Positions 36,072 through 38,200 of a stretch of DNA of 64,000 bases are shown here, piece by piece. Location: contig NZ_QODK01000004.1 in the NCBI RefSeq assembly GCF_003324485.1, positions 248,001 through 312,000 of the forward strand, in the 5' to 3' direction. The stretch's first letter is position 1. Every line of letters begins with the position of its first letter. The stretch comes from Cohaesibacter intestini. Lineage in GTDB: Bacteria > Pseudomonadota > Alphaproteobacteria > Rhizobiales > Cohaesibacteraceae. Position numbers and translations under genes: made by a program. The notes under the pieces were generated by a model, which made no database searches, was not told the DNA's origin, and saw only the letters and a program-made list of their open reading frames with translations.

Positions 36072-37376
36072 TTAGCTGCGATCGATGAGACAGATCTGGA
36101 TGTCAGCGACGTTGGTACCGGTCGCGCCGATCTCGATATGATCGCTTGAGGCTTGCAATGCCTTGTAGCTGTCATTGTTGGCCAGCAGGGCCGCAGGGTC
36201 TGTATCTGCATCTCGCATTCTTGCAAGGCTATCCGGATCAACCAGCCCTCCGGCACTGTCGGTCGGGCCATCGCGGCCATCGGTGCCACCGGACAGGAAC
36301 ACCCAACACCCGGTGATTGGTTCGGCCTCTGCGGCCAGAGCAAAGCGGGCTGCCAGTTCCTGATTGCGGCCCCCCTTGCCATCACCTTTCAGGGTGACTG
36401 TGGTCTCTCCGCCCCAGATATAGGCTGTCTTGTGACCATTTGGGGCTTCGGCCACTGCGTCACGCAGCATGGGCGCGACCTCTTCGACATCGCCCTCGAG
36501 CAAATCATCGAGGATCAGTCCACGCCAGCCCATTGGCAGGGCTTCGAGAATGGCTTCAAGGCTGATGGCGTTCGAACCGATCAGGCTGTTGCTGCTGTTG
36601 GACAGATCGGCGGGGGGGCTGTCTTGCTCGCTGCTGGCTTTGGTTTCAAGGGCCGTTCGTACCGCGCCGGGCAAGGCATCAAGCAAGCCCTTGTCTGCGA
36701 ACAGGGCCATGGCGTCCTTGGCAGTTCCCAGCGGCGGGCTGGTCGGGCCGGAGGCGATGGTGCTCAGATCATCGCCGACTACGTCTGAGAGAATATAGCT
36801 TTGCACCTTGGCCGGGTGGGCCAATTGGCTGAGACCGCCACCTTTGAGCTGCGACAAGGTCTGGCGGACGAGGTTCATTTCATGGATGGCGTAGCCATTG
36901 GCCAGCAGCAGCTTGTTGACGGCGATCTTGTCCTCAAGGCTGATCCCGTCAATCGGAGCAGGGACAAGGGCGGAGCCGCCGCCGCTGATCAGCACGATCA
37001 CCTGATCTTTAGCCGTTGCGCCTTCTAGCAGAGCGATGATGGCCTGACCGGCGGCAAGGCCATTGGCATCTGGGACCGGGTGTCCGGTGGCAAAGCAGGA
37101 GGCCCCATCAATCGCCTTGGCATTTTCATAATTGGTGACCACCAAGGCCTCAAAGGGCGTGCCGTCGGGCAGGGCCTTGAGGCAGGTCTCCGCCATGGCG
37201 TTGGCGGCCTTGCCCAGCGCAATGATCAGGTAACGGCCGGTTTCAAGCGGTAGCAGAGGGTGCTTTTCAAAGGCGCGTGCCAGCCCATGGGCCGGATTGG
37301 CCGCATCCACACCCACCTGAAATAACGCCAGAGCCAGATCTCTCAAGGATTGGTTGTCCTTCTGCTGCTCTGCCAT
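36072..37376 (-). CDS. Glycerate 2-kinase (MOFRL/GckA-TtuD family)
   Basis: 434 residues. The N-terminal DUF4147 part has IALGKAANAMAE (about 52-63) and VLISGGGSALVPAP (about 127-140). The C-terminal MOFRL domain has GGETTVTLKGDGKGGRNQELAARFAL and FLSGGTDGRDGPTDSAGGLVD. Members phosphorylate glycerate to 2-phosphoglycerate, and some were annotated as hydroxypyruvate reductase. The start is preceded by GGGAGAGAAGCAG. A strong terminator-tipped structured RNA ends 108 bp upstream, so this gene may either have its own promoter (a TATAGT lies near 37427) or be controlled by read-through. Confidence 0.92.
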   Translation of the reverse strand: MAEQQKDNQSLRDLALALFQVGVDAANPAHGLARAFEKHPLLPLETGRYLIIALGKAANAMAETCLKALPDGTPFEALVVTNYENAKAIDGASCFATGHPVPDANGLAAGQAIIALLEGATAKDQVIVLISGGGSALVPAPIDGISLEDKIAVNKLLLANGYAIHEMNLVRQTLSQLKGGGLSQLAHPAKVQSYILSDVVGDDLSTIASGPTSPPLGTAKDAMALFADKGLLDALPGAVRTALETKASSEQDSPPADLSNSSNSLIGSNAISLEAILEALPMGWRGLILDDLLEGDVEEVAPMLRDAVAEAPNGHKTAYIWGGETTVTLKGDGKGGRNQELAARFALAAEAEPITGCWVFLSGGTDGRDGPTDSAGGLVDPDSLARMRDADTDPAALLANNDSYKALQASSDHIEIGATGTNVADIQICLIDRS

Positions 37377-37483
37377 CTGCTTCTCTCCCTTTGGCGTGAT
37401 TTTCTGTCATCGAATTTGGGCAGACTATAGAAGTGGCCACAGCAAAGGGCCAGAGTTTATGGGTGGATTGTTGGGTGAGGCAC

Positions 37484-37526
37484 AAAAAAATAATGCCCTG
37501 CTCCCAAGTGATCGGGTGCAGGGCAT
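37484..37526 (-). terminator. Rho-independent terminator of the candidate small RNA
   Basis: ATGCCCTGC (37493-37501) and GCAGGGCAT (37518-37526) form a perfect 9-bp stem with a 16-nt loop. On the minus strand the stem is followed by TATTTTTTT. On the plus strand no T-run follows, which fixes the direction. It lies 108 bp before the glycerate kinase start. Confidence 0.85.
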
Positions 37527-37674
37527 GAGGGTCATCCGGGCGGGTCCGATTGCATACGTTATCGGGGAGAGGCAGTATGCGTTTCGGCGGCCCCCCGTCG
37601 CAGATGACGGTGCCTCTGGGGAGAGGCTTCGTTGGCTCACTTACGAAAGCAACTTTAATACTTTCGTCTTAGCC
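37484..37674 (-). ncRNA. Candidate structured small RNA, about 190 nt, unknown family
   Basis: Read on the minus strand, this segment contains five consecutive stems and ends in an intrinsic terminator. Stem 1 spans 37634-37674 (GGCT and ACGAAAG pairing with CTTTCGT and AGCC). Stem 2 is 37612-37627 (GCCTCT, loop CCCC, AGAGGC). Stem 3 is 37595-37610 (CCGTC/GACGG). Stem 4 is 37552-37580 (GCATAC/GTATGC). Stem 5 is the terminator. A -10-like TATAAC (37686-37681) would place the transcription start at about 37674, exactly at the 5' edge of stem 1. It does not show the hallmarks of 6S, tmRNA, SRP or RNase P RNA that I could check. It may be an independent sRNA or a 5' leader of the glycerate kinase gene. 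Confidence 0.55.
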
Positions 37675-37680
37675 GGGGAA

Positions 37681-37738
37681 GTTATACCTTTGAACAGGCC
37701 TGTCCAATCCCCAGATTTTCCACTCGATCCCCAGATTT
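37681..37738 (-). promoter_or_regulatory. Candidate promoter with two 12-bp direct repeats
   Basis: A -10-like TATAAC occupies 37681-37686 (minus strand). Upstream lie two perfect copies of AAATCTGGGGAT at 37707-37718 and 37727-37738, exactly 20 bp apart. Relative to a start at about 37674 the repeats fall near -33 to -44 and -53 to -64. This is the usual place for a response-regulator or other activator binding as tandem dimers on one DNA face. The -35 match (TTGGAC) has a short spacer of 15 bp, consistent with activator dependence. Confidence 0.5.
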
Positions 37739-37761
37739 CCGCCATTCTTGCGGTCAGATGG

Positions 37762-37896
37762 TCATTCTTCGCCACGGCGATAGAATGTCATGGATTCCCA
37801 GTCGCGGCGGTCCGGATGGATGCGTGGCTCGGATTTGCCTACATTTTTGAAGATGTTGAGGGCGAAAGAAAAGGGCGTGCTGTTTTTGTCGAACAT
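37762..37896 (-). CDS. Small conserved-looking 44-residue protein
   Basis: A 44-codon gene starting MFDKNSTPFSFALNIFKNVG and ending DWESMTFYRRGEE. GAGG lies six bases before the ATG. The sequence has a short hydrophobic N-terminal helix and a basic, proline-containing C-terminal half (EPRIHPDRRDWESM). Amino-acid usage looks protein-like, with no rare-residue noise. I do not recognise a family. It lies upstream of, and on the same strand as, the candidate structured RNA, so the two may be functionally linked or the RNA may be its regulated 3' neighbour. Too short for routine gene finders, so it may be missed in annotations. Confidence 0.55.
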   Translation of the reverse strand: MFDKNSTPFSFALNIFKNVGKSEPRIHPDRRDWESMTFYRRGEE

Positions 37897-38168
37897 GGCT
37901 TACCTCATCATGCTGTTTCGAGCCTGCCTTGGCCCGAATTTGCGCTGCATTCTGTATGATCTTTTCAGCTGGTTTGATGTCTAAATTCCGGGGCTGATTG
38001 GATCGGATGCTGTGGTTGCTGTGTGTGTTTTCTGTCTGTTGTTGGCTCTATTCTGCCATTTTTCGAATTTTTCGGAAGAGATGATTGTGCGACACACCTA
38101 TGCATAAAATGCATGGATATATTTTTCGGAATGCAAAATAATTATGACGATGCAAAAGGCTGACGGGA
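37897..38168. other. Intergenic region between the small-protein gene and the imu promoter
   Basis: About 270 bp, AT-rich toward the right end, without a supportable gene. It must carry the promoter of the 44-residue gene (minus). A short palindromic stretch ATGCATAAAATGCAT (38099-38113) is present, of unknown meaning. Confidence 0.4.
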
Positions 38169-38200
38169 TTGACTTTTTGTGATACGTTCTCTTTATGTTC
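38169..38200 (+). promoter_or_regulatory. SOS promoter with alphaproteobacterial LexA box
   Basis: TTGACT (38169-38174) is followed after 17 bp by TTTATG (38192-38197) as a -35/-10 pair. GTTC-TCTTTAT-GTTC (38186-38200) is the direct-repeat LexA box GTTC-N7-GTTC known from alphaproteobacteria, and it covers the -10. LexA should therefore block RNA polymerase until DNA damage. The imuA start lies 80 bp downstream. Confidence 0.85.

Follow-up and report, generated by a model that had tools for sequence, protein, structure and literature searches.

The closest described systems are alphaproteobacterial loci that encode RNAs with anti-Shine-Dalgarno (aSD) motifs. In the CcaF1-CcsR1-4/CIN1 system of Rhodobacter sphaeroides, as described in the accessible parts of two reports, the 3' UTR of a small protein gene contains aSD RNAs, and the unit has a Rho-independent terminator (PMC10253847, PMC8625941); processing of the ccaF1 3' UTR yields the CcsR RNAs and involves both RNase E and CcaF1 (PMC8625941, in part). 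At the promoter of NfeR1, the accessible part of PMC10746234 reports an LsrB-type motif, TGCA-N6-GCAT, 60-72 nt before the transcription start; nothing on an LsrB-type motif was found in the accessible part of PMC11975290. A search of the open-licence literature yielded no description of a small RNA (sRNA), non-coding RNA or riboswitch from Cohaesibacter.

We analyzed a 64-kb stretch of DNA (the window), which is part of the 4.79-Mb genome (G000) of a marine bacterium of the genus Cohaesibacter, and compared it with related genomes. A small protein gene on the minus strand of the window is followed by a conserved structured RNA with an aSD loop, and the layout of this locus, its conservation and its upstream motifs are established at the level of genome comparison. 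On balance, we favor the interpretation that the two parts form an operon of CIN1-like architecture, encoding a small protein and a 3' UTR-derived aSD sRNA, probably stress-regulated, in which both parts come from unrelated families.

The genus also contains loci of the described type. A search for DUF1127 genes in four Cohaesibacter genomes returned 12 places, and at seven of these (L094, L095, L096, L097, L099, L103, and L105) the aSD motif occurs two or three times within ~300 nt. All seven are ar14 loci by Rfam, scoring 73-92 bits with the RF02344 model (cut-off 58.8), and each of the four genomes has at least one CIN1-type arrangement in which a DUF1127 gene precedes ar14 aSD RNAs.

Structure and occurrence of the RNA

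The conserved RNA occupies positions 37484-37674 of the minus strand. Its 5' boundary is approximate: in the 14-genome alignment, the invariant core begins at 37644 and conserved sequence reaches to near 37674. Of 101 genomes searched with BLASTN, 14 gave a match to the RNA: 14 of the 18 from Cohaesibacter and none of the 83 from other relatives. Within the genus, it was missing from G005 (64% complete), G008, G010, and G017. Homologues outside the genus were sought with a covariance model that scored 8-10 first-look candidates per genome, so that distant relatives may be missed, and the search gave single weak matches among 289 genomes of the class (G184, 22.1 bits) and among 249 genomes of the order (G433, 23.2 bits, terminator positions only). 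Within the genus, the match in G010 (26.8 bits) is a terminator-like hairpin that has neither the box nor the loop described below.

The minus strand of region 37484-37690 folds at -82.1 kcal/mol, compared to -58.4 ± 4.2 kcal/mol for shuffled sequences (z -5.66), and none of 200 shuffles was equally stable. The consensus of the 14-sequence alignment contains four helices. Pair statistics were calculated on 13 sequences, leaving out G009, which is close to G002 and G003, and 97.1% of the cells at consensus pairs are paired. Covariation was assessed by five measures, two of them weak. Two-sided changes were found in 27 cells versus 10.0 ± 2.3 in column shuffles, and none of 500 shuffles reached 27. 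Controls with slid partners gave 1-6 two-sided cells versus 27 for the fold, an advantage that is partly favored because the structure was derived from the same sequence set. The number of pairs with a two-sided change (8), a weak measure, was reached by 21 of 500 shuffles, and the further pair types showed no excess (22 versus 22.5 in shuffles; reached by 391 of 500). The two-sided changes across genomes, one of the checks named in the first-pass annotation of this DNA, support the fold.

Hairpin 1 (GCCYCU/AGRGGC; 37612-37627) is paired in 100% of cells and has one two-sided pair. Helix 2 (37531-37608) is a long-range helix of GTCATCTG (37608-37601) with CGGATGAC (37538-37531) that is extended by G-C pairs and encloses hairpin 3; 99.4% of its cells are paired, and one pair changes on both sides (UA in 8 sequences and CG in 5). 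This helix, with its two-sided pair, explains the sequence better than the local hairpin at 37595-37610 that had been drawn initially. Hairpin 3 (GCATAC/GTATGC; 37552-37580) presents the aSD motif in its apical loop, has four pairs with two-sided changes, and is paired in 90.6% of cells. The RNA ends in an intrinsic terminator (37484-37526) formed by the stem 37526-37493 and a T-run, which is supported by the fold, the alignment and the pair statistics, and a T-rich terminator tail is present in all 14 genomes. The stems previously marked at 37612-37627, 37552-37580, and 37493-37526 (the latter with its T-run) recur in the 14-genome alignment, whereas the stem marked at 37634-37674 forms in the window sequence but corresponds to no helix in the 14-genome consensus.

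No Rfam family matched the window at gathering scores. At E<=10, the one match was ES205 in the terminator region (17.4 bits versus a cut-off of 86), and the loci of six relatives gave at E<=1 only mir-191, away from the RNA (23.3 bits versus 54). Searching 37350-37850 with the ar14 model RF02344 produced nothing at E<=10, and the loci of the six relatives produced nothing at E<=1; the covariance model of CcsR1 (RF02791) likewise found no match in that region or in the relatives. The missing match is informative because Rfam recognizes 7/7 of the ar14 loci in the genus. Conversely, a profile of the RNA reached at best 3.1 bits on the 12 DUF1127 loci, and sequence homology to ar14 is not supported. 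6S RNA (RF00013) was considered and rejected; the single above-cut-off match of the genome lies elsewhere (G000:C4:93888-94048, 58.2 bits). The initial failure to recognize a known RNA family is borne out by these searches. Judged from the genome sequences, the structured RNA is real, and its original description as structured and unassigned holds, given its presence in 14/18 genomes of the genus, its two-sided base-pair changes and its lack of an Rfam family.

Anti-Shine-Dalgarno loop and invariant box

The apical loop of hairpin 3 (37562-37573, minus strand) carries GCCTCCTCCCCGA in 12 of the 14 genomes and GCCTCTCCCCGA in the window genome and G012, so that one or the other form is present in 14/14; the loop of the window genome is one C short. 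This loop resembles the anti-Shine-Dalgarno end of 16S rRNA. The original proposal that a C-rich loop could base-pair with ribosome-binding sites has good support. Both copies of CTCCCC that had been pointed out are present in the window, as part of a 10-nt repeat (D2), but the motif is kept across genomes only at 37573-37562; the second copy makes up the loop of the GCCYCT hairpin, and that loop varies. The RNA probably turns other messages off via this exposed aSD loop.

The most conserved part of the RNA is a 20-nt box, GTAAGTGAGCCAACGAAGCC (37625-37644, minus strand), which is identical in 14/14 genomes. Apart from the last three bases, with which hairpin 1 begins, the box is unpaired in the consensus. 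A search for antisense targets of the box with <=3 mismatches in G000, G003, G006, G015, and G011 returned 7, 10, 9, 9, and 8 sites, respectively, own locus included, and the reversed box returned 8, 5, 17, 18, and 12 sites in these genomes; thus, antisense sites are not enriched overall. An 18-mer of the box matched three contigs of Cohaesibacter and one of Gemmatimonadales, the latter sharing little with the RNA outside the 18-mer, and was absent from the viral contigs searched. The box could act as a second functional surface, being a processing site, a protein site, or a second seed. As a separate observation, the 9-mer AACGAAGCC of the box (37625-37633) recurs at four of the seven ar14 loci (L094-L097), where it makes up the 5' arm of the final hairpin; this may be due to chance or may be a trace of common origin.

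Small protein gene and its control region

The gene upstream of the RNA (37762-37896, minus strand), on which the first-pass annotation was silent, encodes a protein of 44 aa (MFDKNSTPFSF...MTFYRRGEE), and its relatives have 43-47 aa from the shared start. The gene was found in 14 of 61 genomes searched, which are exactly the genomes with the RNA; neither occurs alone in any of them. Pairwise differences at codon positions 1, 2, and 3 are 0.21, 0.19, and 0.40, in a comparison where five rows included upstream in-frame extensions, and the stop codons vary. Neither Pfam nor NCBIfam yields a match to the protein at E<=1. Among 297 genomes of the order, 31 contain a match to it at E<=0.1, nine of them in the same genus (E<=7e-27); the remaining 22 genomes give weak matches, the strongest of which (E 0.0014) falls within a 321-aa frame, and a second match in G000 is also weak. 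The AlphaFold model shows two short helices at low confidence (mean pLDDT 63.3). The distance from the stop codon to the box is 109-120 nt in 12 genomes and 196 and 200 nt in the other two, and the spacer between gene and RNA is poorly conserved.

Upstream of the small gene, the mean pair identity of five representatives is 0.60-0.66 at 38124-38045 versus 0.00-0.32 in the length-variable stretch 38044-37905. Three elements were recognized on the minus strand of this control region. An upstream element, TGCA-N17-ATGCA (38110-38135), is present in 14/14 genomes and is common to the DUF1127-ar14 loci; this shared feature emerged from the present comparison rather than from published descriptions. 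The motif TGCA-N6-GCAT (38100-38113) is present in 13/14, with one mismatch in G014, and in this motif the locus resembles LsrB-regulated sRNAs. A candidate promoter core with putative hexamers, CTTCCG-N17-CAGAAT (38050-38078), was picked by eye in the conserved block 38124-38045. On the plus strand of the window, TGCA-N6-GCAT has two sites, one of them overlapping the small-gene site, and the looser TGCA-N6-GCA[TA] has five sites per strand. Further upstream, GAAC-N7-GAAC at 38186-38200 is conserved in the 14-genome alignment, and the divergent genes read by eye as an imuB and dnaE2 cluster; the motif resembles an alphaproteobacterial LexA box, which would serve these divergent genes.

When the 14 upstream regions were shuffled, 34 of 4,200 versions contained the element TGCA-N17-ATGCA, and it occurred 3 times on one strand of 128,733 bases of other loci. 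Its extended form, TTGCAT-N16-ATGCA, is found at three distinct places in the 4.79-Mb genome: the RNA locus, a DUF1127-ar14 locus, and a locus without an aSD motif; the backwards pattern has no site in six genomes. Among the 26 distinct sites examined, which come from the 30 of 54 matches with locus sequence, nine belong to aSD loci, of which six have two or three CTCCTCCC copies and three represent the small-gene RNA locus; the other 17 lack an aSD motif nearby. The third site of the window genome, G000:C3:21509-21535 (L149), has no aSD motif in the examined locus and is possibly another regulon member, or a chance occurrence.

At all seven DUF1127 loci with aSD hairpins, TGCA-N17-ATGCA precedes the DUF1127 match by 154-187 nt, and it is present at none of the five loci without such hairpins. 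TGCA-N6-GCAT was found before none of the seven ar14 loci, five of which have TGCA-N6-GCAA, and one of the five loci without an aSD RNA (L098) does have TGCA-N6-GCAT. Since the LsrB form is not shared, the feature common to the RNA locus and the ar14 loci is TGCA-N17-ATGCA. With a profile of the control region, the ten highest-scoring matches all fall in DUF1127-aSD loci and outrank 25 background loci, but the scores on ar14 loci are weak (best 11.3 bits), and several matches are on the strand opposite to the gene.

Alternative explanations of the RNA

In the main rival explanation, the RNA would be an aSD sRNA that acts in trans and is transcribed independently from a promoter at its own 5' end, and the small gene would be a mere neighbor. 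It holds this rank because the blocks ACnAAAGT and GTAAGT keep a fixed, ungapped spacing in 14/14 genomes, and a precedent is NfeR1, a Sinorhizobium ar14 sRNA that has its own promoter according to the accessible part of PMC10746234. However, no -35/-10 pair common to all clades was found. The TATAAC in which the first-pass annotation saw the -10 box of a regulated promoter is not conserved (2/14 genomes), and of the accompanying 12-bp repeats, two perfect copies with a spacing of 20 do exist in the window (37707-37718 and 37727-37738), but the exact repeats occur in 1/14 genomes. The conserved operator-like region before the small gene and the strict co-occurrence of gene and RNA also argue against a separate transcription unit, and we regard it as a credible minority explanation.

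A role of the RNA mainly as a structured 3' UTR that stabilizes the mRNA of the small gene, without trans targets, would account for its position directly behind the gene, its strong terminator and its co-inheritance with the gene. The invariant loop motif and the invariant 20-nt box exceed the needs of stability, and this explanation appears unlikely.

The glycerate kinase gene is next downstream in 12/14 genomes by coordinates, an assignment that left out G016, and the distance of 108 bp from the terminator end to its ATG in the window was confirmed. G006 and G016 have in this position a gene that reads as DUF188/YaiI, as judged by eye against the window's own copy. Past the terminator, a promoter-like site for the downstream gene, CTGG-N20-TATAGT in the window (37424-37453, minus strand), recurs as CTGG-N(20-21)-TATA[GC]T in 14/14. 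Hence, the initial suggestion of a riboswitch-like, cis-acting glycerate kinase leader, attractive for a structured RNA with a terminator just upstream of that gene, is contradicted by the T-rich terminator tail, by the separate promoter-like site, and by a position before one regulated gene that is not constant, and it is highly improbable. We tie the RNA to the small gene rather than to glycerate kinase because the small gene is present in the same 14 genomes, the downstream gene varies, and the latter has a separate promoter-like site.

Proposed function of the operon

In the favored operon of small protein and aSD sRNA, an LsrB-type regulator would most likely control transcription, its binding being predicted from the motif. 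Our confidence in the operon is slightly lowered because L098 has TGCA-N6-GCAT and ar14 loci read GCAA in 5 of 7 cases. Transcription would start near 38043, run through the small gene, and end at the terminator of the RNA. Cleavage, probably by RNase E, would free the 3' part as a stable sRNA of ~160-190 nt, whose GCCUCCUCCCCGA loop would pair with Shine-Dalgarno sequences of target mRNAs, blocking translation. By analogy with CcaF1 and the CcsR RNAs, the small protein could help in processing.

More tentatively, CIN1-type operons may be modular, the upstream element and the layout being kept while protein and RNA are exchanged for unrelated families, and the box may be recognized by the small protein or another partner as a second control surface. 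If true, the combination of a tiny protein with an anti-Shine-Dalgarno RNA would be a more general alphaproteobacterial design that extends beyond DUF1127 proteins and cuckoo-type RNAs. The locus would then add one new RNA family and one new small-protein family, and would offer an independent case for asking why a small protein and an aSD RNA are linked.

Comparison with known systems

As in CIN1, the aSD RNA of Cohaesibacter lies directly behind a small protein gene on the same strand and ends in a terminator. It differs from CIN1 in that the small protein, having no Pfam match at E<=1, is not recognized as DUF1127, and in that the RNA does not match CcsR1 (RF02791). The RNA shares with ar14/NfeR1 (RF02344; SmelA075, SmelA099) an alphaproteobacterial setting and an aSD motif in a hairpin loop, and this loop resembles the CCUCCUCCC loops of rhizobial aSD sRNAs described in the accessible part of PMC3927594. 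In the accessible description, ar14 has three hairpins, each with CCUCCUCCC, whereas the Cohaesibacter RNA has one conserved aSD loop; unlike in ar14, this loop lies inside a long-range helix and is accompanied by a separate terminator and the invariant 20-nt box. Upstream, the locus resembles NfeR1 in its TGCA-N6-GCAT motif (NfeR1 promoter according to the accessible part of PMC10746234), and it has TGCA-N17-ATGCA in common with the seven ar14 copies examined in its own genus, which likewise stand behind small genes, those of the DUF1127 family.
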